From positions 3,968,001 through 4,032,000 of the forward strand of contig NZ_JAGSHX010000006.1 in assembly GCF_018138715.1 (NCBI RefSeq): a stretch of DNA of 64,000 bases, in the 5' to 3' direction. Shown piece after piece: positions 324-62,432 of the stretch; the stretch's first letter is position 1, and the number at the start of each line of letters is the position of its first letter. This stretch comes from Streptomyces asiaticus (GTDB taxonomy: Bacteria > Actinomycetota > Actinomycetes > Streptomycetales > Streptomycetaceae). The notes below the pieces were generated by a model, which had not been told where the DNA came from, made no database searches, and saw only the letters and a program-made list of their open reading frames with translations. The position numbers and the translations under genes were made by a program.

Positions 324-383
324 CGCTCAACTGCCCTGCGCTCAGGCACGCGGCGCTCAGCCGCCCGGCGCTCAGGCGCGCGG
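324..383. repeat. 15-bp tandem repeat x4 spanning the GMC oxidoreductase stop codon
   Basis: Four consecutive 15-bp units starting CGCTCA at 324, 339, 354 and 369 (the unit at 369 reads CGCTCAGGCGCGCGG). A fifth, displaced CGCTCA lies at 311. The last unit contains the stop codon of the minus-strand oxidoreductase (complement TCA at 372-374). Because the period is 15, TGA recurs in the same frame in each unit: four tandem in-frame stops. Confidence 0.85.
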
Positions 384-2246
384 CGGGACCTTCGGCACCG
401 GCAGCAGCGGGAGCCTCAACGCCCCGAAGGCGTCCGCCGGTACGGCGGGGCTGCGCGGCGGGACGGGCCGCAGGCGCTCGTACGGCGCCTCCGGGGCCGG
501 GCGGGGGTCGGGCTCGCCCTTGTTGGGCCACAGGGACATCGCCCGCTCGGCCTGGGCCGTGATGGTCAGGGACGGGTTGACGCCCAGGTTGGCCGAGACG
601 GCGGCGCCGTCGACCACATGGATGCCCGGATGGCCGTAGAGCCGGTGGTACGGGTCGATGACGCCCTCCTCCGGGGACGCCCCGATCGGGCAGCCGCCGA
701 GGAAGTGGGCGGTCAGCGGGGTGCCCATGAGCTCGCCGACGTTGCTGCCCGCGAAGCCGTTGATCGAGTCGGCGATGTGGCGGGCGGCCTCGGCGCCTTC
801 GGGGATGTGGTCGGGGTTGGGCTCGCCGTGGCCCTGGCGGGCGGTGAGCAGCCCCTTCCCCGGCCCCTTCGGCTTGCGGTAGGTGGTCAGCGAGTTGTCG
901 TGCGTCTGCATGACCAGGCCGATGATGGTCCGCTCCGACCAGCGGCGGTTGGACAGCGAGCGCACGGCCAGGGTGGGGTGCCGGAGGTTGGCGCCCAGGA
1001 AGCGCAGCCAGCGCGGAACACGCCCGCCGTGCGGGATCTGGAGGATGGAGAGCATCCCCATCGCGTTGGAGCCCTTGCCGTAGCGGACGGGCTCGATATG
1101 GGTGTTCTCGTCCGGGTGGATGGACGAGGTGATCGCGACGCCCCGGGTGAAGTCCGCCCGCCCCTCCCCGCCCCGTGCGCGGCGGTAGCGGCGGTCGGTG
1201 GTCTGCGCGCCCACCAGAGCCTCTGAGTTGGTGCGGGTGAGGATGCCGAGCCGCTCCGAGACGCGCGGCAGCAGCCCCTTGTCCCGCATCGTGTGCAGCA
1301 GCGTCTGGGTGCCGTACGTACCGGCGGCGAGGACGACGTACCGGGAGCGCAGCGCCTTCGGCTTGCCCTTACGGCGGTTGTCGGTCGGGACGGTGGTGAC
1401 CGTATAGCCGCCGTGCGGATCGTCGCACAGGGCGACGACGGTCGTCATCGGGTGGACCACGGCTCCGGACTGCTCGGCGAGGTGGAGATAGTTCTCGTTG
1501 AGGGTGTTCTTGGCGCCGTGGCGGCAGCCGGTCATGCACTCACCGCACTCCGTGCACGCCTTACGGGTCGGGCCCGCGCCGCCGAAGTACGGATCGGGAA
1601 CGGCCCCGCCCGGCGCGGCCTTGGTGGTGCCGTCGGCGTCGTGGCCGTCCCCGAAGAAGACCCCCACGGGCGCCATATGGAAGGTGTCGCCCACGCCCAT
1701 CTTCTCGGCGGCCGCCTTGAGGTGGACATCGGACGGGGTGAGGGTGTGGTTGAGGCGCGCCCCGAGCATCCGCCGCGCCTGGTCGTAGTACGGGCTCAGC
1801 TCCTCCTGCCAGTCGGTGATGTGCCCCCACTGGCGGTCCCGGAAGAACGGCTCGGGCGGTACGTAGAGGGTGTTGGCGTAGTTGAGCGAACCGCCCCCGA
1901 CCCCGGCGCCCGCCAGCACCATGACCTTGCCCAGGACATGGATGCGCTGGATGCCGAAGCAGCCGAGGGCCGGAGCCCAGAGGTAGTTGCGGAGGTCCCA
2001 GGAGTTCTTGGGCAGGGTTTCGGGGGTGAACCGGCGGCCCGCCTCGAGGACGCCGACCCGATAGCCCTTCTCGGTCAGACGCAGGGCCGATACCGATCCG
2101 CCGAATCCCGACCCGATCACGATCACGTCGTAGTCGACGTCACCGTCGTCGGGATGGGTGCCGGCATGGACGTCGAGATCGTCGGCGAAGTCCTCGTCGT
2201 GGCCGGGCTCTTGCGCCCGCTTTTGGGCAGACTTCTCCCCTGACAC
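372..2246 (-). CDS. GMC-family FAD-dependent oxidoreductase (cholesterol-oxidase/ChoD-like)
   Basis: A 624-residue flavoprotein. An acidic N-terminus is followed by a Rossmann FAD-binding strand YDVIVIGSGFGG (residues about 39-50), and the C-terminal GMC signature includes HVVDGAAVSANLGVNPSLT. In the middle is a C-x2-C-x2-C-x3-C cluster (CTECGECMTGCRHGAKN), as in mycobacterial ChoD-type cholesterol oxidases and related actinobacterial GMC enzymes. It probably oxidises an alcohol group of a lipid or sterol-like substrate; the substrate cannot be inferred. The GTG at 2246 is chosen because GGGAGG lies 5 nt upstream. A longer frame to 2300 would overlap the upstream aldehyde dehydrogenase, which ends at 2272, 25 bp before this start. 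The two are probably co-transcribed as an alcohol-to-aldehyde-to-acid pair. Confidence 0.85.
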   Translation of the reverse strand: MSGEKSAQKRAQEPGHDEDFADDLDVHAGTHPDDGDVDYDVIVIGSGFGGSVSALRLTEKGYRVGVLEAGRRFTPETLPKNSWDLRNYLWAPALGCFGIQRIHVLGKVMVLAGAGVGGGSLNYANTLYVPPEPFFRDRQWGHITDWQEELSPYYDQARRMLGARLNHTLTPSDVHLKAAAEKMGVGDTFHMAPVGVFFGDGHDADGTTKAAPGGAVPDPYFGGAGPTRKACTECGECMTGCRHGAKNTLNENYLHLAEQSGAVVHPMTTVVALCDDPHGGYTVTTVPTDNRRKGKPKALRSRYVVLAAGTYGTQTLLHTMRDKGLLPRVSERLGILTRTNSEALVGAQTTDRRYRRARGGEGRADFTRGVAITSSIHPDENTHIEPVRYGKGSNAMGMLSILQIPHGGRVPRWLRFLGANLRHPTLAVRSLSNRRWSERTIIGLVMQTHDNSLTTYRKPKGPGKGLLTARQGHGEPNPDHIPEGAEAARHIADSINGFAGSNVGELMGTPLTAHFLGGCPIGASPEEGVIDPYHRLYGHPGIHVVDGAAVSANLGVNPSLTITAQAERAMSLWPNKGEPDPRPAPEAPYERLRPVPPRSPAVPADAFGALRLPLLPVPKVPPRA

Positions 2247-2271
2247 TGGTACCTCCCTTGCAATGTGCTGG

Positions 2272-9313: not shown

Positions 9314-9399
9314 CCTAAGGGGTCCGGGTGTCGGGGGCAATGGGAATTAGGGAAGTGGCTAGGAAATCGGGCACCGCACAACCATGCCGCGCGCTCCTC

Positions 9400-9487
9400 G
9401 CTCAACACCTCCCCTCCTCCCGGTCAACCCCTCCCGACCTGCCGCTCAGCCCCTCCCCGCACGCTCCCTCCCCGCTCACCCCCTCCC
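9400..9487. repeat. 22-bp imperfect tandem repeat spanning the iminopeptidase stop codon
   Basis: The motif CTCAnCnCCTCCC (with variant GTCAACCCCTCCC) recurs with TCA at 9402, 9424, 9446 and 9476, spacings 22, 22 and 30 bp. The copy at 9476-9478 is the complement of the TGA stop of the minus-strand iminopeptidase. The array occupies the gap downstream of that gene; the remaining sequence to 9314 shows nothing else. Confidence 0.7.
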
Positions 9488-15167: not shown

Positions 15168-15221
15168 GGCTGTGTCGATATGCGGCTCCGCCGCGGCTGT
15201 GTCGATATGCGGCTCCGCCGC
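15168..15221. repeat. Perfect 27-bp tandem duplication between convergent genes
   Basis: Two identical, adjacent 27-bp copies (15168-15194 and 15195-15221), each containing TGTGTCGATATGCGG. They lie in the 270-bp gap between the histidine kinase and STAS genes. The same gap also has several CGCCCTGGGC copies (about 15034-15118). There is no coding evidence. Confidence 0.85.
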
Positions 15222-21321: not shown

Positions 21322-21360
21322 GCCCGGTCACAGGTGAGTGGCCCCGGTCACAGGTCGGTG
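21321..21360. repeat. 20-bp direct repeat x2 spanning the stop codon of the proline-rich membrane protein
   Basis: Two adjacent 20-bp copies (21321-21340 and 21341-21360) share CCCGGTCACAGGT. The second copy contains the complement of the gene's TGA stop (TCA 21348-21350), and the first copy repeats it 20 bp further downstream. Confidence 0.75.
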
Positions 21361-22901
21361 GCCTGGCGCGAGGTGAGGCCGTACTGGGAGGCGATCGGGT
21401 TCCACAGCCCCGAGGCCGTCTTCTTGGCCCGGGTCGCCTCGCCACTGGCCCGCTCGGCCGCCCCGACCCGGGGCGAACGGCGGGCCTTGCCCTTGGGGCA
21501 GCCCTTCTTGCCGCCGACCTGGTCGGCCCAGGCCGCGTACTCGTTGTCGGCCCTGGCCGAGGACTTCCACGCCCTGGTGAGCGACGCGGTCAGCCGCGCG
21601 TGGTCGGGCAGCTTGTCCACCGACAGCTTGCCCAGCCGGGTCACCAGGTCATTGCGCTGGCCCGCGGCGGTCCGCAGATCGGATGCCGCCGTGGTCAGGT
21701 CCTTGCAGGACTTGATGTTGTCCACGGCCTTGATCACCGCAGACCGGCTGTTGTTGCTGTCCGCGAGCAGCGCGTCCAGCGCCTTCGCCTGCGTCTCGAC
21801 GGGGTCGGCGGCCTTGGAGGACTCCGCGGCGCTCGGCGAGGCGCTGCTCAGCGTCGAGTTGTCCTTACCGCCGTCGTCACCGCCCATACTGAGCACGGCT
21901 CCCGCGGCGAGTCCGGCGACGGCGCAGCTCGCCACCACCACGACGCCGATGATCATGCCTCGCGACATCCGGCGCCGGCCACCGCCGCCATGACCGCCGT
22001 CACCACGGCCGCCGGACGGCGGTTGCGGAACGTCCGGGCCGAACTGCGGAAGCTGCTGTGTCTCATCGGCGCCACCGGCACCGCCGGCGTCGCGGAACAG
22101 ACCGTCGAACTCCGAGGGCGGCGGCCGGTCCCCGGGAAGGCCGGGACGGATCGCGTACGGGGCGCTGCCGGGCCGCTGCGGAATCGGCGCGGGCGCGGCG
22201 GGCGCGGCGGGCGTGGGCGGGAGCACCGCGGTCTCCTCCGCGGCCGCTGCCGCGGGGGGCTGCTGGCGGTGGGCGCCCCGGCGGCCGGGGCGGACGGCGC
22301 GCAGCTGGGTGGTGGACTCGGCCGGTGACTCGGGCCGGTTCTCGGGCGGCAGCGGCGCGCTCTTGACCGGGGCGAGCGTGGTGGTGGGGGTGTCCAGGGG
22401 CGGCGGGGCCTCACCCGGGACCGGGGGTATGACCTGGGTCGCGTCCGCGTCCCCGGCGGGCTGCGGCGGCATCACCTGGGTCTCGTCGGCGGCCTGGTAC
22501 GGCAGCGGCTGGGGCTGGTACGGCGCCGGGACGTTGTGCGGCGGCTGAGCGCTGTGCGGCGGCTGGGCCGGTCTCTCCGGGGGCGTCCAGTCCTGCTGCT
22601 GCCCGTACGGCTGCGCCTCGGGCGGCGGCGGGGCGCCGAACTCGGCCCGCGGGGGCAGTTCCCCCTGCGACGGCGGCGCGCCGAACTCACCCGGCGGCGG
22701 CAGTTCGCCCTGCTGCTGCGGTTCCGGAGCGCTCTGCGGCCCCCAAGGCTGCCCCCACGCCTGGCCCCCGGCCGGGGCTCCCTGTTGGGCGTCCGAGGGC
22801 CTGTGGTCCCCGTGGGCGGGGAGCACAACCCCCTCGCGCACAGGCTGCGCGGGCGGGACCGCGGGAAGCCGCGGCTCATTCCCCTGACCGCTCTGCGTCA
22901 C
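21348..22901 (-). CDS. Proline-rich single-pass membrane protein of unknown function
   Basis: A 517-residue protein. About residues 1-310 are disordered Pro/Gln/Gly-rich sequence with short repeats (GELPPPGEFGAPP / GELPPRAEFGAPP). Then come a basic stop (GRRRMSRG), one transmembrane helix (about 315-337, MIIGVVVVASCAVAGLAAGAVL) and an extracellular helical region of about 180 residues (ETQAKALDALLADSNNSRSAVIKAVDNIKSCKDL) ending TSRQATDL. Two cysteines in the outer part may pair. GTG 22901 has AGGAG 7 nt upstream. Streptomyces has many such proteins with a cytoplasmic Pro-rich arm and a small outer domain. No function can be assigned. Confidence 0.75.
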   Translation of the reverse strand: MTQSGQGNEPRLPAVPPAQPVREGVVLPAHGDHRPSDAQQGAPAGGQAWGQPWGPQSAPEPQQQGELPPPGEFGAPPSQGELPPRAEFGAPPPPEAQPYGQQQDWTPPERPAQPPHSAQPPHNVPAPYQPQPLPYQAADETQVMPPQPAGDADATQVIPPVPGEAPPPLDTPTTTLAPVKSAPLPPENRPESPAESTTQLRAVRPGRRGAHRQQPPAAAAAEETAVLPPTPAAPAAPAPIPQRPGSAPYAIRPGLPGDRPPPSEFDGLFRDAGGAGGADETQQLPQFGPDVPQPPSGGRGDGGHGGGGRRRMSRGMIIGVVVVASCAVAGLAAGAVLSMGGDDGGKDNSTLSSASPSAAESSKAADPVETQAKALDALLADSNNSRSAVIKAVDNIKSCKDLTTAASDLRTAAGQRNDLVTRLGKLSVDKLPDHARLTASLTRAWKSSARADNEYAAWADQVGGKKGCPKGKARRSPRVGAAERASGEATRAKKTASGLWNPIASQYGLTSRQATDL

Positions 22902-30165: not shown

Positions 30166-30801
30166 TTGCCGCTGACCAAGACAACGTGGCTGCTGCGCGC
30201 CGGCGCGCCCGTTGCCGTACTGGCTCTCGCCCTGACCGCGTGCGGACCATTCGGCGAAAAGGACGATACCTCCGAGAACGCGCGGCACACTTCCCGCTCG
30301 GGTGTCACCGATGGTCACCGGAGCGGTGCGCAGAAGGTCGGTATGCGATCGGACGGTGAGCCGCCGCTCCGGCCGGGCCAGACCGGTACGCGTGCGTTCA
30401 AGGAGGACACCGGGGTCGAGCCCACCTATCGGATCGCGGCGCAGAAGGTCGACATCGGCACGGCGGCCGAGGCGAAGGCGCTGGTGTCGAACCCCGCGGA
30501 CGCCGAGGGCAAGGTACCCGCGGTGGTCTATGTGAAGTACACCCATGTGCGCGGGGCCACGGTGAAGGAGTATCCGCGGGTCGGGGACTACGCGGAGGTG
30601 TACGCGGACGGGCGGCGCGGAGCGAAGGTCACCGGCACTGCCGGACGGCCCAAGGGGTGCGCGGACTCGGATGAGATCAAGAACTGGAGGAACGGGCAGA
30701 GCTATCTGCTCTGCAACACCTTCCTGATCCCCGCGCGGGCGAGGTCGGTCAAGGTCATGTGGACGGAGATCGGCGGCAAGCCGTTCGTCTGGACGTTCTG
30801 A
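30166..30801 (+). CDS. Putative lipoprotein of unknown function
   Basis: A 211-residue exported protein. The signal has basic residues, then VAVLALALTAC with lipobox LALTA-C (Cys about 27). The mature part begins with a charged, flexible segment (GEKDDTSENARHTSRSGVTDGHRSG). It continues into a beta-rich domain (YRIAAQKVDIGTAAEAKALV, then VPAVVYVKYTHVRGATV and GQSYLLCNTFLIP) with two further cysteines. TTG 30166 is chosen because GGAG lies 6 nt upstream; an upstream in-frame TTG at 30154 has no RBS. I do not recognise the family. It follows a promoter with a palindromic element. Confidence 0.7.
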   Translation: MPLTKTTWLLRAGAPVAVLALALTACGPFGEKDDTSENARHTSRSGVTDGHRSGAQKVGMRSDGEPPLRPGQTGTRAFKEDTGVEPTYRIAAQKVDIGTAAEAKALVSNPADAEGKVPAVVYVKYTHVRGATVKEYPRVGDYAEVYADGRRGAKVTGTAGRPKGCADSDEIKNWRNGQSYLLCNTFLIPARARSVKVMWTEIGGKPFVWTF

Positions 30802-30826
30802 ACGGGGCGTCTGGACGTTCTGAACG
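30786..30826. repeat. 19-bp direct repeat (period 22) duplicating the lipoprotein gene end
   Basis: CGTCTGGACGTTCTGAACG occurs at 30786-30804 and 30808-30826. The first copy holds the last codons and the TGA of the lipoprotein gene, and the second lies just downstream, so gene end and stop codon are duplicated. Confidence 0.8.
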
Positions 30827-30869
30827 CGGCGCCGAATCATCGGGGTTGAGCCGCGCAGGGCCTGTGCGG

Positions 30870-32284: not shown

Positions 32285-32469
32285 CGCGCGGCGTCGGGAA
32301 GGAAGGTCAGCGCGGTGTCGGAAGCGAGGTCCGCGCGGTGTCGGAAGCGAGCTCAGCGCGGTGTTGAAGGCCAGGTCAGCGCGGTGTCGGAAGCGAGCTC
32401 AGCGCGGTGTTGAAGGCCAGGTCAGCGCGCTGTTGGGAAGCGAGGTCAAGGAGCGAGGTCAGGGAGCGT
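32285..32469. repeat. 23-bp minisatellite (about 7 units) downstream of dmdR1
   Basis: Seven successive units begin at 32285, 32308, 32331, 32354, 32377, 32400 and 32423 (the last 24 bp), with core CAGCGCGGTGT. Two unit types (ending GGAAGCGAGnT or TGAAGGCCAGGT) alternate from the third unit on, giving a partial 46-bp higher-order period. Truncated units continue to 32469, where GTCAGCGC contains the complement of the dmdR1 stop codon. Confidence 0.85.
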
Positions 32470-34139: not shown

Positions 34140-34200
34140 GCGTCAGCGCCGCCCGGCACGCCGCCAGCACCGCCCGGCACGGCGTCAGCGCCTGCGTACG
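34140..34200. repeat. About 20-bp tandem repeat x3 spanning the PAS-protein stop codon
   Basis: GCGTCAGCGCCGCCCGGCAC (34140-34159), a variant copy (34160-34180) and a third (34181-34200). The third includes the complement of the stop codon (TCA 34185-34187) of the minus-strand PAS gene, and the first repeats GTCAGCGC downstream. Confidence 0.7.
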
Positions 34201-35961: not shown

Positions 35962-36121
35962 CAGTCCGTCGTCGCGCTCAGCGCATTCGCCGGACTTGCG
36001 CACCAGAGGTGCGCGGCCGGCCAATCCCAAGCAGTCACCCGACCCGCGGGTCGCCGGTACGTCCGACCGGCCCCCTACCGCCTCAGGGCGTCAGGGGAGA
36101 GACCCGCGGGTTGTCCGCGTT

Positions 36122-36265
36122 CTGAGGGCGTTCTGCGTACTCAGTGCGTTCTGCGTACTCAGTGCGTTCTGCGTGCTCAGGGCGCTCTACGTCCTCAGGG
36201 CGTTCTACGTGCTCAGTGCGTTCTACGTGCTCAGGGCGCTCTACGTCCTCAGGGCGTCCTACGGG
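36122..36265. repeat. 18-bp minisatellite x8 spanning the pdxH stop codon
   Basis: Eight 18-bp units, each starting CTCAG (first one CTGAG), at 36122, 36140, 36158, 36176, 36194, 36212, 36230 and 36248. The last unit contains the complement of the pdxH stop TAG (36259-36261). With an 18-bp period, TAG recurs in frame four more times (at 36241, 36223, 36205 and 36187). Confidence 0.92.
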
Positions 36266-37311: not shown

Positions 37312-38415
37312 ATGTCCGACTTCGTACCCGGACTCGAAGGAGTCGTCGCGTTCGAGACGGAGATCGCCGAACCCGACAAGGAAGGCGGCGCGCTCCGCTA
37401 CCGAGGCGTGGACATCGAGGACCTGGTGGGTCACGTCTCCTTCGGGAACGTCTGGGGGCTGCTGGTCGACGGCGCCTTCAACCCGGGGCTGCCGGCCGCC
37501 GAGCCGTTCCCCATCCCGGTCCACTCCGGGGACGTCCGGGTCGATGTGCAGTCCGCGCTGGCCATGCTCGCGCCCGTCTGGGGCCTCAAACCACTGCTGG
37601 ACATCGACGAGGAGCAGGCCCGCGAGGACCTGGCGCGCGCGGCGGTGATGGCCCTGTCCTACGTGGCCCAGTCGGCCCGCGGCCAGGGGAAGCCGATGGT
37701 GCCGCAGCGGGAGATCGACAAGGCCGAAACCATCGTGGAGCGCTTCATGCGGCGCTGGCGCGGTGAGCCGGACCCCAAGCACGTGGCCGCCGTCGACGCG
37801 TACTGGACCTCGGCGGCCGAGCACGGCATGAACGCCTCCACCTTCACCGCCCGCGTCATCGCCTCCACCGGCGCCGATGTCGCCGCCGCGCTCTCCGGCG
37901 CGGTGGGCGCCATGTCGGGGCCGCTGCACGGCGGCGCGCCCTCCCGGGTGCTCGGCATGATCGAGGAGATCGAGCGCACCGGGGACGCCACCCGCTACGT
38001 CAAGCAGGCGCTCGACCGGGGTGAGCGGCTGATGGGCTTCGGCCACCGGGTCTACCGCGCCGAGGACCCGCGGGCGCGGGTCCTGCGGCGCACCGCCAAG
38101 GAGCTGGGCGCACCGCGCTTCGAGGTCGCCGAGGCGCTGGAGCGGGCCGCCCTGGACGAGCTCCACAACCGCAGGCCGGACCGTGTGCTGGCGACGAACG
38201 TGGAGTTCTGGGCGGCCATCGTGCTGGACTTCGCGGAGGTCCCGGCGCCCATGTTCACCTCGATGTTCACCTGCGCCCGTACGGCGGGCTGGAGCGCGCA
38301 CATCCTGGAGCAGAAGCGGACCGGCCGTCTGGTGCGGCCGTCGGCCCGGTACGTCGGCCCCGGCACGCGCAGCCCGCACGAGGTCGACGGCTACGGGGAC
38401 ACCGCCTCGCGGTAG
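37312..38415 (+). CDS. Citrate synthase (second, short type II-like isoform)
   Basis: A 367-residue protein of the citrate/2-methylcitrate synthase family. N-terminal [28 protein letters not shown], active-site His in [15 protein letters not shown], second His in [16 protein letters not shown] and the catalytic Asp/Arg region in [31 protein letters not shown] are all present. It condenses acetyl-CoA (or another acyl-CoA) with oxaloacetate. Streptomyces usually has a longer main citrate synthase elsewhere, so this may be a secondary or methylcitrate-type enzyme. ATG 37312 follows GAGGAG at 7 nt. An in-frame ATG at 37297 would place the RBS inside the gene. Confidence 0.88.
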
Positions 38416-38508
38416 GCCCGCTCGCGATAGAGCCACTCGCGGTAGGCCAGCTCGCGATAGAGCCGCTCGCGATGGGTCCGCGCGCGACAGGTCAGCGCGC
38501 GACAGGTC
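38404..38508. repeat. 15-bp minisatellite x7 filling the gap between convergent stop codons
   Basis: Units of 15 bp start at 38404, 38419, 38434, 38449, 38464, 38479 and 38494 (e.g. CGCTCGCGATAGAGC). The first contains the TAG of citrate synthase (38413-38415), and TAG recurs in frame at 38428, 38443 and 38458. The far end reaches the TGA complement of the convergent TetR gene (38507-38509), with another in-frame TGA complement at 38492. Confidence 0.93.
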
Positions 38509-39175
38509 AGGAGGCGGCCGGGGCGGGGTGGTCGTGGGCCGGGTGGTCGCCGGCCGGGTGGTCGTCCGGGTCCTTCTGGGCCAGGATCCCCTCCAGGATC
38601 CGCGACCACTGGGCCACCACCCGCTCCCGGCGGTGCCGGTCGTCCGTCAGCAGGTTGGCCAGGCCGAGGCCCCGCCCCATGTCGAGCAGGCCCTGGACGG
38701 CCTCCCGGACGCCCGGCACCGACTCGTCGGCGCCCAGCAGCTCCACCGCGATCCGATGCGTCTCCCGGCCGATCTTCGCCTCCAGCGCGCTCACCCGGGC
38801 GCCCAGCTGCTCCTCGTACGAGGCCGCCACCCACAGCTGGAGGGCGGCCCGGAAGAGCGGGCCGGTGTAGAGGGTGATCAGCGCCTCGACCACCGCGGGG
38901 ACGCGGCCCTCCCGGTGCGGGGCGGGGAGGGCGCGCAGCTCCGCCGAGCGCTCCTCGGCGACATGCTCGACGGCGGCCGTGAAGAGGTCCTCGCGGGTCG
39001 GGAAGTGGTGCTGGGCCGCGCCCCGCGACACCCCGGCCCGCTCGGCGACCACCGCGACCGTGGAACCGGCCCAGCCGCGCTCGGCGAGGCATGCCACGGC
39101 GGCCTCCAGCAGCCGCCTGCGGGTGGCGCGGCTGCGGTCCTGCTTGGGGTCGCGCAATGCCGTACGGGGGGTCAT
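38507..39175 (-). CDS. TetR-family repressor, last gene of the acyl-CoA catabolic operon
   Basis: A 222-residue protein. The N-terminal HTH ([47 protein letters not shown]) is a canonical TetR domain. The C-terminal ligand domain is helical. The protein ends in a repeat-like tail [19 protein letters not shown]. The start overlaps the enoyl-CoA hydratase stop (ATGA), so it is co-translated with the operon and probably autoregulates it in response to an acyl-CoA. A palindromic operator candidate lies before the first operon gene at 49673-49684. Its stop codon sits in the 15-bp minisatellite. Confidence 0.88.
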
Positions 39176-43209: not shown

Positions 43210-45165
43210 TCACTCCCCCGCCGCCACGACGGCGAGCAGGGCTCCGACCTCGACCTGGCGGCCGGGGGCGGCGTGCAGGGCGGTGAGCACCCCGGCGGCG
43301 GGCGCGGTCACGCGGTGCTCCATCTTCATGGCCTCCAGCCACAGCAGGGGCTGTCCGGCCTCGACCCGGTCCCCGACGGCCACCTCGGCGACCCGCACCA
43401 CCGTGCCCGGCATGGGCGCCAGCAGCGAGCCGGGCTCGGTGCGGGCGGTGGGGTCGGGGAAGCGGGGCAGCGCGGTGAACACATGGCCGCCCTGGGGCGT
43501 GTCGACACAGCGGCGGTCCCCATAGGCCGTCACCTCGAACGTCCGCCGGACCCCGGCCACGACCAGGACGACCCGCGCCGGCTCGGCCTCCCGCCCCGGC
43601 TCGGCGTCCCGCCCCGGCTCGACGCCCAGCAGCCGGACGTCGGAGAAGCCCTCCGCGAGCAGTCCGTCGCGGGTGAGGCGGTAGCGCACCTCGTGCTCGG
43701 TGCCGCCCGGTTCCGCGCGGTAGCTCCTCAGCTGCGGCTGGGACGGCACATTGCGCCAGCCGCCCAACCGCCCGGCCACGGTCGCCGGCCGCCGCGCCGC
43801 GTCGGCGAGGGCGGCGGCGAGGGCGGCGAGCGGGCCCGACTCGTCGTCGTCCGAGGCGGCGGTCAGCTCGGGCAGACGGCGTTCGAGGAACCCGGTGTCC
43901 ATACGGCCCGCCGCGAACTCCGGGTGGCGCAGCACCCGTACGAGCAGCTCGCGGTTGGTCACCGGGCCGTGGATCCGGGCCCGCTCCAGCCCGTGGGCCA
44001 GCCGCCGCACCGCCTCGGCCCGGGTGGGGGCCACGGCGATGACCTTGGCCAGCATCGGGTCGTAGTGGACGCCGATCATGTCCCCGCCGTCCGGCCCGGA
44101 GTCCACCCGCAGCCCGGGGATCTCCAGCCGGTGCAGGATCCCCGTCTGCGGCCGCCAGTCGCGCGCCGGGTCCTCGGCGTACAGCCGCGCCTCGATCGCG
44201 TGCCCCCGGGGCGCGGGAGGCTCGGCGTCGAGCCGCTCCCCCTCCGCGATCCGCAGCTGGAGCGCCACCAGGTCGAGGCCGTGGATCTCCTCGGTGACCG
44301 GGTGCTCGACCTGGAGGCGGGTGTTCATCTCCAGGAAGTACGCCCGCCCCGAGGGCGAGACCAGGAACTCCACCGTGCCCGCGCCCTCGTAGCCGATCGC
44401 GCGCGCCGCGTTCGCCGCCGATTCGGCCAGGGTGCGCCGTAGTTCCTCGCCCAGCCCGGGGGCGGGGGCCTCCTCGATGACCTTCTGGTGGCGGCGTTGG
44501 AGGGAGCAGTCGCGGGTGCCGAGGGTCCATACCGTGCCGTGGGTGTCGGCGAGCACCTGGACCTCGACATGGCGGGCGCCCTCCATATAGGGCTCCACGA
44601 AGATCTCGCCGTCGCCGAAGGCGGAGGCCGCCTCGGCGCGGGCGGAGTCGAGTTCGGCGGGGAGCGCGTCGAGCTCGCGCACCACCCGCATGCCCCGGCC
44701 GCCGCCGCCCGCCGCCGCCTTGACCAGCACGGGCAGATCGTCGGCGGTGACCTCGGCCGGGTCGAGCGGATCGAGCAGCGGCACGCCCGCCTTGCGCATG
44801 ATCTCCTTGGCCCGGGTCTTGGAGGCCATGGCCTCCATCGCCTCGGGCGGCGGCCCCACCCACACCAGCCCCGCCGCCCTTACGGCGCGCGCGAAGTCGG
44901 CGTGCTCGGAGAGGAAGCCATAGCCGGGGTGGACGGCGTCGGCCCCGGCGACCAGGGCCGCCTTCACCAGGAGATCGCCCCGCAGATAGGTGTCGGCCGG
45001 GGCGTCGCCCGGCAGCCTTACGGCGGCGTCGGCCTCGCGCGCGTGGGGCGCGCCGGCGTCCGCGTCGGAGTGCACCGCGACGGTGGCGATGCCGAGATCA
45101 CGGCAGGTGCGGACGATACGCCGCGCTATCTCGGCGCGGTTGGCGACCAGGAGGGAACGGATCAC
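43210..45165 (-). CDS. Acyl-CoA carboxylase alpha subunit (biotin carboxylase + BCCP)
   Basis: A 651-residue protein. The biotin carboxylase part (residues 1-450) has the N-terminal IRSLLVANRAEIARRIVRTC, the ATP-grasp loop KAAAGGGGRGMRVV, and the EMNTRLQVEHPVTE and RLYAEDPARDW segments. A linker of about 100 residues contains a small repeat (PGRDAEPGREAEPA). The C-terminal biotinyl domain carries EAMKMEH with biotinyl-Lys near residue 614. It carboxylates biotin and works with the beta subunit encoded just upstream. The short length and operon partners (dehydrogenase, AtuA-like) fit methylcrotonyl/geranyl-type rather than acetyl-CoA carboxylase. GTG 45165 follows GAGG at 5 nt and lies 7 nt after the stop of a linker micro-ORF. 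Confidence 0.92.
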   Translation of the reverse strand: MIRSLLVANRAEIARRIVRTCRDLGIATVAVHSDADAGAPHAREADAAVRLPGDAPADTYLRGDLLVKAALVAGADAVHPGYGFLSEHADFARAVRAAGLVWVGPPPEAMEAMASKTRAKEIMRKAGVPLLDPLDPAEVTADDLPVLVKAAAGGGGRGMRVVRELDALPAELDSARAEAASAFGDGEIFVEPYMEGARHVEVQVLADTHGTVWTLGTRDCSLQRRHQKVIEEAPAPGLGEELRRTLAESAANAARAIGYEGAGTVEFLVSPSGRAYFLEMNTRLQVEHPVTEEIHGLDLVALQLRIAEGERLDAEPPAPRGHAIEARLYAEDPARDWRPQTGILHRLEIPGLRVDSGPDGGDMIGVHYDPMLAKVIAVAPTRAEAVRRLAHGLERARIHGPVTNRELLVRVLRHPEFAAGRMDTGFLERRLPELTAASDDDESGPLAALAAALADAARRPATVAGRLGGWRNVPSQPQLRSYRAEPGGTEHEVRYRLTRDGLLAEGFSDVRLLGVEPGRDAEPGREAEPARVVLVVAGVRRTFEVTAYGDRRCVDTPQGGHVFTALPRFPDPTARTEPGSLLAPMPGTVVRVAEVAVGDRVEAGQPLLWLEAMKMEHRVTAPAAGVLTALHAAPGRQVEVGALLAVVAAGE

Positions 45166-45321
45166 GGGTTCCTCACTCACATCCGGAAGACGCCAAAGCG
45201 AAACCACGACGCGCGCCCGGCACCAACGCGGCGAGCGAGGCAAGCGAGGCAAACGAGGCAAACGAACGGGCGGACAAACAGGCACGGCTCACGGGTTCCT
45301 CACTCACATCCGGAAGACGCC
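45162..45321. repeat. Perfect 33-bp direct repeat (period 127) at the beta/alpha carboxylase junction
   Basis: The same 33 bp (containing ACTCACATCCGGAAGACGCC) occur at 45162-45194 and 45289-45321. Each copy includes, on the operon strand, the end of the beta-subunit frame, TGA, the GAGG ribosome site and a GTG start. Similarity extends imperfectly for about 25 bp beyond. The spacer holds a GCGAGGCAA-type 9-bp tandem repeat (45231-45262). Confidence 0.92.
45173..45292 (-). CDS. Linker micro-ORF (39 codons) between carboxylase beta and alpha genes
   Basis: GTG 45292 is a duplicate of the alpha-subunit start with the same GAGG site, 11 nt after the beta-subunit stop. The frame runs through 9-bp repeats (product segment SFASFASLASLAALVPGARR) and stops at TGA 45175-45173, which overlaps the GAGG site of the true alpha-subunit start. 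It looks like a by-product of junction duplication that keeps the ribosome moving between the two subunits. The peptide is probably without function. Confidence 0.5.
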   Translation of the reverse strand: MSRACLSARSFASFASLASLAALVPGARRGFALASSGCE

Positions 45322-46902
45322 GAAGCCACCGCGCGCGCCCTCGACCGGCGCGGTGTGCAGGGCGGACAGACACAGGCCGAGCACGGTGCGGGTGTCGCGC
45401 GGGTCGATGACGCCGTCGTCGTAGAGCCGCCCGGAGAGGAAGAGCGGCAGCGACTCGGACTCGATCTGCTGCTCCACCATGGCGCGCAGCGCGGCGTCGG
45501 CCTCCTCGTCGTACGGCTGCCCCTTGGCGGCGGCGGACTGCCGGGCGACGATCGACATCACCCCGGCGAGCTGCTGCGGCCCCATCACGGCGGACTTGGC
45601 GCTGGGCCAGGCGAAGAGGAAGCGGGGGTCGTACGCCCGGCCGCACATCCCGTAGTGACCGGCGCCGTACGAGGCGCCGATGAGCACCGACAGATGCGGT
45701 ACGCGGGAGTTGGAGACGGCGTTGATCATCATGGCGCCGTGCTTGATGATCCCGCCCTGCTCGTAGTCGCGGCCGACCATGTAGCCCGTGGTGTTGTGCA
45801 GGAAGAGCAGCGGGATGTCGCGCTGGTTGGCGAGCTGGATGAACTGCGCGGCCTTCTGCGACTCCTCGCTGAACAGCACCCCCTGGGCGTTGGCCAGGAC
45901 CCCGACCGGATAGCCGTGCAGCGCGGCCCAGCCGGTGGCCAGGCTGCGCCCGTACAGCGGCTTGAACTCGTCGAAGTCGGAGCCGTCGACGATCCGGGCG
46001 ATCACCTCGCGCGGATCGAAGGGGACCTTCAGGTCGCTCGGAACGATGCCGAGCAGCTCCTCGGCGTCGTACTTCGGCGGTTCGGCCGGCCCCGGATCGG
46101 AGTGCGCCTTGCGCCAGTTGAGGCGGGCCACGACCCGGCGGGCCTGGCGCAGCGCGTCCGGCTCGTCGGTGGCGAAGTAGTCGGCCAGCCCGGAGGTGCG
46201 GGCGTGCATCTCGGCGCCGCCCAGCGACTCGTCGTCGCTCTCCTCGCCGGTGGCCATCTTCACCAGCGGCGGACCGCCCAGGAAGACCTTGGAGCGCTCC
46301 TTGACCATGATCACGTGGTCGGACATCCCGGGGATGTACGCGCCTCCGGCGGTGGAGTTGCCGAAGACCACGGCGATCGTGGGAATTCCCTCCGCGGACA
46401 GCCGGGTGAGATCCCGGAACATCGCCCCGCCGGGGATGAAGATCTCCTTCTGGGAGGGGAGATCGGCACCGCCGGACTCGACGAGGCTGACGACCGGGAG
46501 GCGGTTCGCCCGGGCGATCTCATGCGCGCGCAGCGACTTCTTCAGCGTCCACGGATTGCTCGCACCACCCCGCACGGTGGGGTCGTTGGCACTGATCAGG
46601 CACTCGACACCGGAGATCACCCCGATACCGGTGACGACGGACGCCCCGACCGGGTAGTCGCTGCCCCACGCGGCCAGCGGGGACAGCTCCAGAAAGGGCG
46701 TATCGGGGTCCAGGAGCAGTTCGATCCGCTCCCGGACGAGCAGCTTCCCGCGCTTGCGGTGCCGCTCGACGTACTTCTCGCCGCCGCCCGCCAGTGCCTT
46801 GGCGTGTTCGGCCTCCAGCTCACCGAGCTTGGCGAGCATCGCCTCGCGGTGGGCCGTGTAGTCGGCGCCTGCGGGATCGAGCGCGGACGCGAGCACGGTC
46901 AC
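45304..46902 (-). CDS. Acyl-CoA carboxylase beta subunit (carboxyltransferase), methylcrotonyl/geranyl-CoA type
   Basis: A 532-residue protein, the usual size for MCC/GCC beta. Carboxyltransferase N half: GKLLVRERIELLLDPDTPFLEL, then LVESGGADLPSQKEIFIPGGAMFRDLTRLSA. C half: LANAQGVLFSEESQKAAQFIQL, LLFLHNTTGYMVGRDYEQGGIIKHGAMM and the oxyanion-forming GASYGAGHYGMCGRAYDPRFLFAWP. YMVGRDYEQGGI is a motif of methylcrotonyl- and geranyl-CoA carboxylases. It transfers CO2 from biotin to the acyl-CoA gamma-carbon. GTG 46902 has GGAGG upstream and overlaps the stop of the 28-codon micro-ORF. Confidence 0.92.
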   Translation of the reverse strand: MTVLASALDPAGADYTAHREAMLAKLGELEAEHAKALAGGGEKYVERHRKRGKLLVRERIELLLDPDTPFLELSPLAAWGSDYPVGASVVTGIGVISGVECLISANDPTVRGGASNPWTLKKSLRAHEIARANRLPVVSLVESGGADLPSQKEIFIPGGAMFRDLTRLSAEGIPTIAVVFGNSTAGGAYIPGMSDHVIMVKERSKVFLGGPPLVKMATGEESDDESLGGAEMHARTSGLADYFATDEPDALRQARRVVARLNWRKAHSDPGPAEPPKYDAEELLGIVPSDLKVPFDPREVIARIVDGSDFDEFKPLYGRSLATGWAALHGYPVGVLANAQGVLFSEESQKAAQFIQLANQRDIPLLFLHNTTGYMVGRDYEQGGIIKHGAMMINAVSNSRVPHLSVLIGASYGAGHYGMCGRAYDPRFLFAWPSAKSAVMGPQQLAGVMSIVARQSAAAKGQPYDEEADAALRAMVEQQIESESLPLFLSGRLYDDGVIDPRDTRTVLGLCLSALHTAPVEGARGGFGVFRM

Positions 46903-46985
46903 AGCGACACCTCCGGTATGTCCAGACGGCGAGAGGGCGACCCATCGCCAACGGCCGTGGCCGGGGGGCCGGAACGGGGGGTCAC
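46899..46985 (-). CDS. Linker micro-ORF (28 codons) between the AtuA-like and carboxylase beta genes
   Basis: GTG 46985 overlaps the AtuA-like gene's stop (GTGA), and its own TGA overlaps the carboxylase beta GTG (GTGA again). Its C-terminus RLDIPEVSL copies the AtuA-like C-terminus HLDIPEVLL. The AtuA gene end with its coupled start site was therefore tandemly duplicated (period 83 bp), leaving a short coupled ORF. Both overlaps are intact, so ribosomes can pass AtuA, micro-ORF and beta subunit in succession. Confidence 0.55.
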   Translation of the reverse strand: MTPRSGPPATAVGDGSPSRRLDIPEVSL

Positions 46986-48682
46986 AGCAGTACCTCCGGT
47001 ATGTCGAGGTGGCGGGAGCGCAGCCACTCGCCGACGGCCTTGGCCTGGGGGTCGAAGCGGGCCTGCGCGGCGACGCCCTCGCCGAGCAGCCCGTCCACGA
47101 CGAAGTTCAGGGCCCGCAGCCGGGGCAGCGGATGGCGGGTGACGTTCAGTTCGGCCGTCTCCGGGAGCAGCTCCCGCAGCCGGTCGACGGTGAGGGTGTG
47201 GGCCAGCCAGCGCCAGGCGCCCTCGCCGCGCGCCCAGACGCCGATGTTGGCGCTGCCGCCCTTGTCGCCGCTGCGGGCCCCGGCGACGGCGCCGAGCGGG
47301 GCACGGCGGGTCGGGCCCGGCGGCAGCGGGGGCGGCAGCGGCAGCGGGGGTTCCGGCACCCGGACCCCGGCCGAGGTGGGCGCCGGGGGAACGGACAGCC
47401 GGGAGCCATCCGGCAGTACGGCGGTGTGCGGCACGGTGTCGGCCGGGGTCTCCACGGCCTCGAAGACGCCGTAAGGGGAGCCCTTTCCGGGCGGGGCGGT
47501 GACATGGAAGCCGGGGTAGCTGGCGAGGGCCAGTTCGACGGCGGCGCCGCTGATCACCCTGCCCACCGCCGCCGGGTCCCGGTCGCGCACCACCAGCCGC
47601 AGCAGCGCGCTCGCCTCCTCCTGGACGGCCGCGTCGGGGTGGTCGGTACGGGAGAGGGTCCAGCGGACCTCGGCGGGGCGGCGTTTGCTCATCGCCCCCT
47701 CCATCTGGTCCCGTACGAGCGCCGCCTTGGCCTCGATGTCCAGGCCGGTGAGCACGAACACCACCTCGTTGCGGTGGCCGCCGAGCCGGGTCAGCCCGGT
47801 CTTGAGGGTGCGGGGCGGCGCCTCGCCCCGTACGCCGTGGACGCGCACCCGGTCCGGGCCGTCCTGGGCCAGCCGCACCGAGTCCAGCCGGGCGGTGACA
47901 TCCGGGCCCGGATAGCGGGCGCCCGCCGTCTCGTAGAGGAGCTGGGCGGTGACGGTGCCGACCGTGACGGCGCCGCCGGTGTGCGGATGCTTGGTGATCA
48001 CGCTGGAGCCGTCGGGGTGGATCTCGGCGAAGGGAAAGCCGGGGCGGCGGACGTCGTGCTCGGCGAAGAAGGAGTAGTTGCCGCCGGTCGCCTGGGTACC
48101 GCACTCCAGGATGTGCCCGGCGACCACGGCTCCGGCGAGCGCGTCCCAGTCGTCGGCGGCCCATCCGAAGTGCGCGGCGGCCGGGCCCGTCACCAGCGCG
48201 GCGTCCGTCACCCGCCCGGTGACCACCACATCAGCGCCACCGCGCAGACAGGCCGTGATCCCGGCCCCGCCGAGATACGCGTTGGCGGTGACCACGCCCG
48301 GCCCCCAGTCGCGGGCGCCCAGAAGGTCGTCGCCCTCCACATGGGCCACCCGGCACGCGATCCCGAGCCGCTCGGCGAGCTCGCGGATCGCGTCCGCCAG
48401 CCCGGCCGGGTTGAGCCCGCCCGCGTTGGTGACGAGCCGTACGCCGCGCTCCATGGCGAGCCCCAGGGTGTCCTCGAGCTGGCGCAGAAAGGTCGTGGCA
48501 TAGCCCCGCGCCGGGTCCTTGGCGCGGTCCCGGCCCAGGATGAGCATGGTCAACTCGGCGAGGTAGTCACCGGTCAGCACGTCCAGGGGCCCACCGGTGA
48601 GCATCTCGCGCAGCGCGTCGAAGCGGTCGCCGTAGAAGCCGGAGGCGTTGCCGATGCGGAGGGGGCGGGGCGGAGGGGTCAC
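46982..48682 (-). CDS. AtuA-like protein (acyclic terpene utilisation family, DUF1446)
   Basis: A 566-residue cytoplasmic protein. The DUF1446 N-terminal part reads LRIGNASGFYGDRFDALREML, then VRLVTNAGGLNPAGLADAIREL and RVAHVEGDDLLG, with GRVTDAALVTGPAAAHFGW and GHILECGTQATGGNYSFF further on. The C-terminal AtuA-like small domain (about 460-560) begins RRAPLGAVAGARSGDKGGSANIGVW. The family is required for citronellol/geraniol degradation in Pseudomonas (atu cluster) but its reaction is not settled. Here it is coupled to carboxylase genes as in atu clusters. GTG 48682 overlaps the stop of the TIGR03084 gene. Confidence 0.87.
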   Translation of the reverse strand: MTPPPRPLRIGNASGFYGDRFDALREMLTGGPLDVLTGDYLAELTMLILGRDRAKDPARGYATTFLRQLEDTLGLAMERGVRLVTNAGGLNPAGLADAIRELAERLGIACRVAHVEGDDLLGARDWGPGVVTANAYLGGAGITACLRGGADVVVTGRVTDAALVTGPAAAHFGWAADDWDALAGAVVAGHILECGTQATGGNYSFFAEHDVRRPGFPFAEIHPDGSSVITKHPHTGGAVTVGTVTAQLLYETAGARYPGPDVTARLDSVRLAQDGPDRVRVHGVRGEAPPRTLKTGLTRLGGHRNEVVFVLTGLDIEAKAALVRDQMEGAMSKRRPAEVRWTLSRTDHPDAAVQEEASALLRLVVRDRDPAAVGRVISGAAVELALASYPGFHVTAPPGKGSPYGVFEAVETPADTVPHTAVLPDGSRLSVPPAPTSAGVRVPEPPLPLPPPLPPGPTRRAPLGAVAGARSGDKGGSANIGVWARGEGAWRWLAHTLTVDRLRELLPETAELNVTRHPLPRLRALNFVVDGLLGEGVAAQARFDPQAKAVGEWLRSRHLDIPEVLL

Positions 48683-60097: not shown

Positions 60098-60104
60098 GGT
60101 CTTT

Positions 60105-60243: not shown

Positions 60244-60298
60244 GGGGCGGAACGCTCATGCGCCAGGCGGGACGGCGTACACCAGGGCGGGACGACGA

Positions 60299-60319
60299 CT
60301 CGGCCCAGGCTGGGCCGAG
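60299..60319 (-). terminator. Hairpin terminator of the AzgA-type permease gene
   Basis: CTCGGCCCA (60299-60307) pairs with TGGGCCGAG (60311-60319), a perfect 9-bp stem and 3-nt loop, starting 7 bp after the permease stop codon on the minus strand. Confidence 0.7.
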
Positions 60320-60325
60320 CTCGGC

Positions 60326-61792
60326 TCAGGAGACGCCGAGTGCCTGTTCGATCGGGTTGAGCAGGAAGTACACCAGGAAGCACAGCCCCACCACGCCCAG
60401 CAGCCACGGGATCTCCCGGGCCCGCCGGGTGGCGATGCGCAGCAGCAGGAACGAGAGGACGCCCAGCCCGATCCCGTTGGTGATGCTGTACGTGAACGGC
60501 ATCGAGATCATGGTCAGGAAGGCCGGGATCGCGATCGTGGAATCGCTCCAGTCGATCTCCTTGACGTTCGCCGCCATGATCAGGAAGCCGACGACCACCA
60601 GCGCGGGGGTCGCGGCCTGCGAGGGCACCACCTTGGCCAGCGGGGTGAAGACCAGCGCGAGCAGGAAGAGCCCGCCGGTCACCACGTTCGCGAGTCCGGT
60701 GCGCGCCCCCTCCCCGACGCCCGCCGTGGATTCGACGAAGCAGGTGTTGGCCGAGGCAGAGCCGAAGCCGCCGCCCGCCACCGCGACGCCGTCCATCATC
60801 AGGATCCGGCCCATGCCGGGCAGCTGACCGCGCTCATCGGTCAGCCCGGCCTCCTCGCCGACGCCGATGATCGTGCCCATCGCGTCGAAGAAGCCGGACA
60901 GCAGCACGGTGAAGACGAAGAGACAGCCGGTGAGCAGGCCGACCTCATGGAAGCCGCCGAAGAGGCTGACGTCGCCGACGAGGCCGAAGTCCGGCTTGTC
61001 GACCACCTTCTCCGGCACCGAGGGGATGGTCAGCCCCCACTGGGCGTCCGGGATCGTGGCCAGGGAGTTGATCACGATCGCGACCACGGTCATGGTCACG
61101 ATGCCGATCAGGATCGCGCCGCGCGTCTTGCGGACGATCAGGATGAAGGTGAGCGCGAGACCGGCCACGAAGACCAGCACCGGCCAGCCCTGGAGCCGCC
61201 CGGCCACGCCCAGGCCCAGGGGGACGGTGGTGTGCGCGGAGTCGGGGTTACGGCTGACGAAGCCGGAGTCGACCAGGCCGATCAGGGCGATGAAGAGCCC
61301 GATGCCGATCGCGATCGCCCGCCGCAGCCCGGACGGAATCGCGTCCATCACCCGCTGCCGCAGCCCGGAGGCGACGAGGATCATCAGCACCAGACCCGCG
61401 AGCACCACCATGCCCATCGCGTCCGGCCAGCTCATCTTGGGCGCGAGCTGGAGCGAGACCACGGCGTTGATGCCGAGGCCCGCGGCCAGCGCGATGGGAA
61501 CGTTGCCGACGATCCCCATGAGCAGCGTGGTCAGGCCCGCGATCAGGGCAGTGGCGGTGACCAGCTGGCCGTTGTTGAGCTGATGCCCGAACTTGTCCGT
61601 ACCGGCCCCGAGGATGATCGGGTTCAGTACGACGATGTAGGCCATCGCAAAGAACGTGGCCAGTCCGCCCCGGATCTCCCGGGAGACCGAGGAACCACGC
61701 TCGCTGATCTTGAAGAACGTGTCGATGCCGTTGGCGGGGGGAGTCGGAGCCTGCTTACCGGCGTCGACCGGCGCGGTGGCCGAGGGGGACAT
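60326..61792 (-). CDS. Adenine/guanine/hypoxanthine permease, AzgA-type (NCS2-like)
   Basis: A 488-residue transporter with about 13 hydrophobic segments. Signature stretches are GLATFFAMAYIVVLNPIILG, GNVPIALAAGLGINAVVSL, FDAMGTIIGVGEEAGLTDERGQLPGMGRILMMDGVAVAGGGFGSASANTCFVESTAGVGEGARTGLANVVTG and PSQAATPALVVVG. The last region (TxxxES-type with ESTAGV) holds substrate-binding Glu/Ser of this family. It imports purine bases with protons. ATG 61792 follows GAGG at 6 nt. It is divergent from the DUF2530 gene across 209 bp with two direct 15-mers. Confidence 0.92.
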   Translation of the reverse strand: MSPSATAPVDAGKQAPTPPANGIDTFFKISERGSSVSREIRGGLATFFAMAYIVVLNPIILGAGTDKFGHQLNNGQLVTATALIAGLTTLLMGIVGNVPIALAAGLGINAVVSLQLAPKMSWPDAMGMVVLAGLVLMILVASGLRQRVMDAIPSGLRRAIAIGIGLFIALIGLVDSGFVSRNPDSAHTTVPLGLGVAGRLQGWPVLVFVAGLALTFILIVRKTRGAILIGIVTMTVVAIVINSLATIPDAQWGLTIPSVPEKVVDKPDFGLVGDVSLFGGFHEVGLLTGCLFVFTVLLSGFFDAMGTIIGVGEEAGLTDERGQLPGMGRILMMDGVAVAGGGFGSASANTCFVESTAGVGEGARTGLANVVTGGLFLLALVFTPLAKVVPSQAATPALVVVGFLIMAANVKEIDWSDSTIAIPAFLTMISMPFTYSITNGIGLGVLSFLLLRIATRRAREIPWLLGVVGLCFLVYFLLNPIEQALGVS

Positions 61793-61863: not shown

Positions 61864-62001
61864 AAGACATTCCACTCAGACCCAGAAGTATTCAGTATGA
61901 AACTATTAAGGTCCGATCGCCAAACCGGTCCCCGGTACGGCCGCTGTGAGGTCCAGCACGACCCCGGCCGGGCCCATGACCGGCCCCCTTAAGCTGTGGC
62001 C

Positions 62002-62283
62002 ATGACGAAGTGGACCCCCAAGCACGAGGCGCCGGAGCCCCTCGAGGGCAATGTCGTGGCCACGATCACCGGCGGCACGATCGTGTGGTTCGTCCTCTTC
62101 CTCACCCAGCTGCCCTTCTACGGCTGGTTCCACGAGCACGGACATCTGTGGTGGCTGTGGACCTGCCTGGCCGGCGGCGGGCTCGGGCTGCTCGGCATCT
62201 GGTACGTACGGGCCCGGGAGGCGGCGATCCGGCGCGGCTCGCGGAACGGGGACGCGCGGACGGCCGACGCGCAGAACGGCTGA
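62002..62283 (+). CDS. DUF2530 family two-helix membrane protein
   Basis: A 93-residue protein. A short polar start (TKWTPKHEAPEPLEGN) leads to helix 1 (TITGGTIVWFVLFLTQLPFYGWF), a His-rich turn (HEHGH) and helix 2 (LWWLWTCLAGGGLGLLGIWYV), then a basic tail. It is a conserved actinobacterial small membrane protein of unknown function. ATG 62002 sits 6 nt after TAAGCT, a -10-like box, with no RBS: probably leaderless. The last eight codons (ARTADAQNG) are made from the 15/16-bp minisatellite that continues downstream. Confidence 0.8.
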   Translation: MTKWTPKHEAPEPLEGNVVATITGGTIVWFVLFLTQLPFYGWFHEHGHLWWLWTCLAGGGLGLLGIWYVRAREAAIRRGSRNGDARTADAQNG

Positions 62284-62432
62284 CCCGCGGTACGGCTGAC
62301 GCGCGGAACGGCCGACGCTCGGTACGGCTGACGCTCGGAACGGCCGACGCTCGGACGGCCGACGCACGGAACGGCTGACGCTCGGACGGCCGACGCACGG
62401 AACGGCTGATACGCGGCACCGCTGACGCACAG
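62260..62432. repeat. 15/16-bp minisatellite (11 units) that overlaps the DUF2530 gene end
   Basis: Units anchored on ACGGCYGACGCnCGG start at 62260, 62275, 62291, 62307, 62323, 62339, 62355, 62370, 62386, 62401 and 62417. The unit at 62275 contains the stop codon (AACGGCTGA), and the unit at 62260 is inside the coding sequence. TGA recurs in six of the later units but not in frame, since the period is mixed 15 and 16. Confidence 0.9.

Follow-up and report, generated by a model that had tools for sequence, protein, structure and literature searches.

Why do so many genes in one stretch of a Streptomyces chromosome end in short tandem repeats that contain the gene's stop codon? The window, by which we mean the whole stretch of DNA that was analyzed, is 64 kb of an 11.88-Mb Streptomyces genome (G000:C6:3968001-4032000), and a sequence-only reading of it had listed eleven gene 3′ ends with such repeats and had proposed one recurrent process linked to the stop codon. 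We find that arrays gather in a zone behind genes that includes the stop. We favor, with a probability of about 0.7, neutral short tandem duplication and slippage in dispensable gene-end DNA, such that the arrays would be young noncoding minisatellites.

Tandem arrays were found with Tandem Repeats Finder (TRF) at a score of at least 50 or at least 80, and an 864-kb sample of the source genome was set against syntenic stretches of sister genomes and 67 further Streptomyces loci. The 67 loci, many of them from draft assemblies, were those left of 80 returned after removal of four close relatives and nine loci shorter than 10 kb. Genes were called with our own codon-model script rather than taken from curated annotation, gene names are those assigned in the sequence-only reading, and array variation was compared between species, not among strains of one species. 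The closest named relatives by PdxH are S. antioxidans (95%), Streptomyces sp. NEAU-Y11 (89%), S. himastatinicus (87%), and S. sparsogenes (85%).

Arrays gather in a broad zone at gene ends that includes the stop codon

Arrays covered 51 of the 688 stop codons in the 864-kb sample and 13 of the 688 start codons, a roughly 4-fold difference that speaks for stop-targeted duplication, in which the unit is set by the terminating ribosome or by the stop codon. From 2 to 3% within genes, array coverage climbed to 8% on the stop codon and to 16% between +40 and +60 bp, and thus the peak lies downstream of the stop. The near edges of arrays were spread broadly, between about −15 and +50 bp relative to the stop, and were 2- to 6-fold thinner beyond 100 bp. 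In the source genome and three sisters, no clear peak of edges was seen at the stop, and arrays started just past the stop about as often as on it, such that the claim of a stop-linked process was not borne out. Equal array frequency elsewhere, which the sequence-only reading had named as fatal to that claim, was closely approached by the frequency with which arrays started just downstream.

The placement of arrays was compared with a permitted-site null, under which every position in the gap, and every position in the gene within one unit of its end, is open to the start of an array. At a score of at least 80, 43 stop-covering arrays were observed and 42.7 were expected in convergent gaps pooled from the source genome, six sisters, and the 67 loci. 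The source genome had 25 stop-covering arrays versus 22.9 expected (convergent gaps, 17 versus 14.8), and the convergent gaps of three sisters had 17 versus 15.8. Convergent gaps of the 67 loci showed a deficit, with 11 versus 20.0 expected and, at a score of at least 80, 7 versus 11.9.

Other counts weigh against an indifferent stop. At a score of at least 50, the source genome had 46 stop-covering arrays versus 32.2 expected (convergent part, 30 versus 20.5), and six sisters had 37 versus 20.9 at a score of at least 80. Tandem gaps of three sisters had 19 versus 8.8 (score of at least 80) and 29 versus 12.6 (at least 50), counts that are not independent because some arrays are common to sisters, and the excess was still 1.7- to 2.4-fold when the 60 to 200 bp before the next start were excluded. 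Tandem gaps of the 67 loci had 16 versus 6.5 (at least 50) and 7 versus 4.3 (at least 80), with an excess of up to 4-fold when 200 bp before the start were excluded, and edges there peaked at −15 to +8 bp (23 of 77), the only set with such a peak. In weaker arrays and tandem gaps, a residual excess of about 1.3- to 2.5-fold is left, and one set reaches 4-fold. Some of what is seen in tandem gaps comes from arrays that hug the gene end generally, because a uniform null is too loose over long gaps, and in these gaps the stop may be slightly preferred.

When a duplication starts within a gene's final codons, the original stop is kept in the first copy and no harm results. The permitted zone therefore reaches about one unit into the gene, and the inclusion of the stop is mostly an edge effect. 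We conclude that the stop codon is unlikely to be the target and that duplication directed by the stop or by the terminating ribosome is very improbable.

Frame, folding, and spacing of arrays are ordinary

Another possibility is that the arrays are functional, having been selected as tandem stops, terminators, insulators, or spacers. Consistent with function, the fraction of convergent gaps with an array was 0.33 to 0.73 in the source genome and six sisters (26 of 54 and 26 of 64 gaps of up to 600 bp in two stretches of the source genome). Moreover, for 48 of 105 arrays the same gap held a different array in another species (14, 16, and 18 in comparisons of the source genome with G189, G408, and G384).

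The sequence-only reading had suggested that the repeats could supply tandem stops, 3′ mRNA structure, or variable spacers, and none of these roles was supported. Periods of coding arrays were divisible by three in 220 of 231 cases. Stop-covering arrays had no frame preference (39/31/30 of 100 by period modulo 3), and other noncoding arrays leaned toward multiples of three (120/63/59), perhaps from coding sequence missed by the gene caller. Units re-expanded to array length folded no better than shuffled ones (mean z of −0.07 with a standard error of the mean [SEM] of 0.07; 241 arrays), and stable hairpin units of the kind found in intrinsic terminators were not seen either in this set or in its convergent subset (88 arrays; z of −0.19; SEM, 0.11) in a comparison that included no U-tract test. 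When the array was subtracted, array-bearing convergent gaps were about as long as ordinary ones, at 61 bp versus 73 bp for array-free gaps in the clade and 61 versus 54 bp elsewhere. Arrays were also often missing at the same junctions in close sisters. Thus, ordinary frame, folding, and residual gap length argue against selection of the arrays as tandem stops, terminators, or spacers, and a function for the arrays is highly unlikely.

The units had been described as unrelated to each other, which was nearly correct save for a slight excess of shared words. Among 155 noncoding units, 240 array pairs shared a 9-mer versus 210 expected (standard deviation [SD], 15) and 17 pairs shared a 12-mer versus 7 expected (SD, 3). 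The proposal of one recurrent kind of event, with nearly unrelated units and the protein left intact, stands, and a neutral origin is favored.

A dispersed 24-base element, TGTGTCGATATGCGGCTCCGCCGC, was encountered separately. At up to three mismatches, it had 10 matches in 864 kb, all intergenic and 8 of them in convergent gaps, no match in 20 shuffled controls, and 9 matches in 8 of the 67 loci of other species. It is tandemly duplicated with a 27-bp period at two loci (window positions 15168-15222 and G000:C6 at about 5649045-5649097) and is possibly a recurring 3′-end hairpin.

Arrays turn over rapidly among related species

Gene order was kept among seven genomes of the clade, and the arrays mostly were not. 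In syntenic gaps (convergent plus tandem), the unit was shared for 37 of 165 arrays in four pairs of genomes at 95 to 96% DNA identity (source-G396, 8/42; G189-G080, 19/46; G408-G189, 5/40; G408-G080, 5/37). At 94% identity, 6 of 76 units were shared in two pairs (source-G381, 2/33; G396-G381, 4/43), and at 91.5 to 92.9% identity, none of 105 was shared in three pairs (source versus G189, 0/38; G408, 0/34; G384, 0/33). Rapid variation among relatives was therefore supported, and arrays fixed across Streptomyces by common descent were not what we found. One result tempers this turnover, as sharing was also poor for coding arrays (30 of 107 across the four pairs at 95 to 96% identity). Because of this, detection limits contribute to the low sharing, and fast turnover is not proven to be special to 3′ flanks.

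Gene ends in the window

Within the window, arrays at a score of 50 covered 12 of 48 stop codons. The loci are as follows, with the basis of each call in parentheses.

306..385, minus strand: GMC-type oxidoreductase, 15-bp (30-bp higher-order) array in a convergent gap, stop at 372-374 (TRF, sequence reading, gene calls)
9394..9487, minus strand: iminopeptidase, 22/15-bp array over the stop at 9476-9478 (TRF, gene calls)
21323..21363, minus strand: Pro-rich membrane protein, 20-bp x2 duplication over the stop at 21348-21350 (TRF, flank comparison)
30786..30831, plus strand: lipoprotein, 22-bp x2.1 duplication over the stop at 30799-30801 (TRF, sequence reading)
32286..32468, minus strand: dmdR1, 23-bp array abutting the stop at 32469-32471 (TRF, sequence reading)
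34144..34189, minus strand: PAS protein, 21-bp x2.2 duplication over the stop at 34185-34187 (TRF, flank comparison)
36117..36263, minus strand: pdxH, 18-bp x8 array over the stop at 36259-36261 (TRF, sequence reading)
38406..38510, no strand: citrate synthase convergent gap, filled by a 15-bp x7 array that covers both stops, at 38413-38415 and 38507-38509 (TRF, gene calls)
45162..45321, minus strand: carboxylase beta, direct repeat of about 33 bp at a spacing of about 139 bp (sequence reading; not a TRF array)
46897..47051, minus strand: AtuA-like, 83-bp x1.9 duplication over the stop at 46982-46984 and the next start at 46902 (TRF, flank comparison)
60282..60330, minus strand: 23-bp x2.2 duplication over the stop at 60326, absent from the earlier list (TRF, gene calls)
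62240..62438, plus strand: DUF2530, 15/16-bp x12.7 array over the stop at 62281-62283 (TRF, sequence reading)

Nine of the eleven repeats listed earlier were tandem repeats over the stop by TRF, sequence reading, and gene calls. The exceptions were the dmdR1 array, which only abuts the stop although partial 13-bp copies adjoin it, and carboxylase beta, whose repeat is spaced and not tandem. One further covered stop (40137) is an overlapping stop whose coverage comes from a repeat at 40085-40150 that is almost wholly coding. TRF match was 76 to 95% for the listed arrays, and the copies are therefore imperfect.

The same gene ends differ among sisters. The GMC gap holds an array of another period in G189 (17 bp), G396 (37 bp), and G384 (14 bp) and none in G408, G080, and G381, and the iminopeptidase gap holds arrays in G396 (22 bp, at another offset) and G381 (28 bp) and none in G408, G189, G080, or G384. 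Single-copy alleles of the Pro-rich membrane protein and PAS duplications are carried by G408 and G396, respectively, and the lipoprotein array is absent in G396 and has different periods in G408 and G189. Between citrate synthase and its convergent neighbor, the gap measures 91 bp here and 31 bp in G396, both with a 15-bp unit, as against 98 bp with a 19-bp unit in G189 and 1 bp in G381. DUF2530 3′ ends carry 14-, 15-, 16-, 17-, or 19-bp arrays in five of six sisters and none in G384. In S. antioxidans, the dmdR1 gap (L072) has a 14-bp array and the pdxH gap has no array at a score of at least 50.

Two of the duplications, at 45162-45321 and 46897-47051, are long, lie in one operon, and form a subtype distinct from the short arrays. 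The carboxylase-beta repeat holds both the stop, at 45304, and the start of the following gene, at 45165, at a tight operon junction that measures 138 bp here, 94 bp in the G189 version, and 11 bp in G408, G080, G381, and G384. The AtuA duplication has an allele of the same length in G396, G381, and G189 and one of single-copy length in G384, G080, and G408; the junction genes overlap in G384 and G094. As these duplications carry both a stop and a start, both proteins are left intact. Elsewhere in the window, periods of 36, 24, and 45 bp in or beside coding sequence (14662-14808, 16821-17227, and 22622-22713) are apparently in-frame protein repeats.

New duplications are short and often share little end homology

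Births of duplications were called by flank-anchored comparison with the sister allele, in place of gap-by-gap global alignment. A k-mer-anchored indel caller found few clean single-step duplications and served as a lead only. Among two-copy arrays in seven genomes, 43 of 347 had a sister allele shorter by one unit (within 1 bp), or 40 cases after duplicates were removed, 24 noncoding and 16 coding. The noncoding rows came from 73 arrays with located flanks among 144 examined and represent 22 or 23 events, as the 83-bp AtuA duplication was counted twice and a single site was scored in G189 as well as in G080. All 16 coding births were in frame, the noncoding births were divided 9/8/7 by frame, and the duplicated segment was 15 to 27 bp in 21 of the 24. 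The stop was covered in 9 of 24 rows; in convergent and tandem gaps with units of up to 60 bp, 6 of 19 covered it versus 3.9 expected, a small excess in the direction that stop targeting would predict.

End homology of the 24 noncoding births was mixed. Array length minus two periods ranged from −11 to 14 and was at most 2 bp in 14 of 24, and three births had one extra base between the copies. Because of both features, homology-driven slippage is not strictly required at birth. The extra base, seen in 15- to 19-bp duplications at 163196-163226 and 89167-89205 of the G189 340-kb stretch and at 162039-162077 in G080, may have been left by non-templated or end-joining repair. Exact two-copy runs were rejected as a measure of end homology, as homology at birth was inseparable from partial third copies. 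We conclude that the data establish neither strict slippage nor end joining as the origin of births.

Arrays gather where all indels gather

Insertions and deletions (indels) of at least 6 bp were counted in six non-independent pairs. Array-associated indels numbered 5.9 per kb in convergent gaps, 2.4 in tandem gaps, 0.65 in divergent gaps, and 0.29 in coding sequence, and non-array indels numbered 5.1, 1.4, 0.47, and 0.18, respectively. Within tandem gaps, non-array indels fell from 2.6 per kb at +0 to +30 to 1.9 at +30 to +60 and 0.4 to 0.8 further on. Substitutions outside arrays (four pairs) were 0.093 in convergent gaps, 0.080 at +0 to +30, 0.068 at fourfold sites, 0.047 to 0.062 at later tandem positions, and 0.029 to 0.040 in divergent gaps. 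Other indels and substitutions thus mostly follow the location gradient of the arrays. Taken as a whole, the zone at gene ends resembles DNA that is nearly neutral, and arrays gather where all indels do.

Alternatively, gene 3′ ends could be mutagenic, with termination, paused polymerase, or convergent transcription raising the rate of duplications and indels such that arrays are made there and not merely tolerated. The sharp drop in indels beyond +60 bp in tandem gaps points this way, as does a convergent-to-divergent ratio of about 11-fold for indels versus about 2- to 3-fold for substitutions. The parallel between indels and substitutions, on which tolerance leans, is imperfect because substitutions at +30 to +60 are 0.053, under the fourfold sites, while indels there stay high, and because substitutions in ungapped intervals are nearly flat by class (0.037, 0.035, and 0.032, with coding sequence at 0.029). 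Divergent gaps are also still fairly array poor at distances of over 200 bp from any start, which counts for mutagenic ends and against tolerance. However, substitutions in convergent gaps and in the first 30 bp are only 1.2 to 1.4 times the fourfold rate, as for near-neutral DNA, and strong selection against changes in promoter spacing would yield the same indel gradient. Moreover, an apparent strand bias in pooled unit composition disappeared when taken per array, and no GC skew on the gene strand was found (58 positive and 65 negative of 125 tandem-gap arrays).

Mutagenic gene ends are thus unlikely, if the most credible of the rivals, although indels arising there at a raised rate would leave a similar pattern. 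The broader proposition that Streptomyces 3′ ends are duplication hot spots created by transcription ending or convergent transcription, at which junctions reinvent minisatellites with a strength that differs among lineages, is likewise doubtful. Under the neutral reading, the gradient would be made by tolerance and not by a mutation rate that is raised locally. Short segments would duplicate in tandem anywhere, often with little end homology, and would survive where sequence and spacing matter least, in the 60 to 100 bp behind genes and chiefly between convergent ones. Arrays would then grow, shrink, and decay by slippage, which we infer to be responsible for later amplification.

Array density varies by region and lineage

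The sequence-only reading called the repeats a chromosome-wide habit. Stops do exceed starts, but to extend the density of the window to the chromosome overstates the case, as 41 of 642 stops were covered in the other 800 kb. The difference from the 12 of 48 in the window (Fisher P = 1e-4) indicates that the window is array rich. In sisters, stops covered in the center (the syntenic 100 kb) versus the flanks were 15/77 versus 10/197 (G189), 13/73 versus 6/177 (G080), and 10/75 versus 11/203 (G408). By gaps with an array, the regional contrast had P values of 0.008 in the source genome, 0.014 in G189, 0.28 in G080, and 0.57 in G408. The source genome and G189 are both rich in this region and had 0 of 38 units in common.

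The clade looks array rich beside other Streptomyces, with 65 of 802 stops covered in three sisters (340 kb) as opposed to 35 of 1,016 in the 67 loci and, among five further complete genomes, 12 of 320. As S. antioxidans had 5 of 75 covered and other lineages ranged from 0 of 72 to 7 of 64, we make no strong claim of clade specificity. Two relatives were array poor, with 0 of 75 stops in G094 (L195-L199) and 0 of 72 in G005 (L257-L260) and convergent coverage of 0.06 and 0.00, respectively; intensity therefore differs among lineages.

Discussion

Minisatellites, or variable-number tandem repeats (VNTRs), are head-to-tail copies of a unit of roughly 7 to 100 bp. The arrays described here consist of head-to-tail units by TRF, and their copy number differs among related genomes, in this case between species. 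Ordinary bacterial minisatellites are the closest known systems: they too have short head-to-tail units, differ in copy number or presence among relatives, and within genes are almost only in frame. Unlike them, the arrays here are dense behind genes and commonly give way to different arrays from one sister species to another.

The repeats of archaeal Borgs are described as having nearly unique units that formed recently and independently, as occurring in multiples of three when coding, and in some cases as having a first unit within or partly within a gene end (PMC9879509). The Streptomyces arrays resemble them in near-unique recent units, coding periods in threes, unconstrained noncoding and stop-covering periods, and a first unit at the gene end. 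Borg repeats are described there as perfect, A rich, and extrachromosomal, whereas the Streptomyces arrays are imperfect, G+C rich, and chromosomal.

Mycobacterial junction repeats (MIRU and rnc-fpg1) spare both genes and can turn a junction of a few base pairs into one of hundreds (PMC12548453, PMC2734929). The two long operon-junction duplications (83 bp at AtuA and about 139 bp at carboxylase beta) likewise leave both genes intact, and the growth of the carboxylase junction relative to four sisters recalls rnc-fpg1. MIRUs are described as dispersed, apparently mobile units that insert at start codons (PMC12548453, PMC2734929). In contrast, units here are close to unrelated and are not dispersed, the TGTGTCGATATGCGGCTCCGCCGC element being the exception. 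Among the top titles and abstract openings of the literature searched, most subscription papers being outside its reach, no report of this pattern in Streptomyces was found.

Repeats that hold a stop codon can thus follow simply from where mutations survive, which cautions against reading gene-end arrays as regulatory. Turnover now has a measure, with 0 of 105 gene-end units shared at 7 to 8.5% DNA divergence, and the arrays provide rapidly changing markers with which to type Streptomyces and a natural setting for asking whether gene ends are mutagenic. What is worth keeping is the combination of density and speed: a third to three quarters of convergent gaps carry an array, and few of those arrays are shared.

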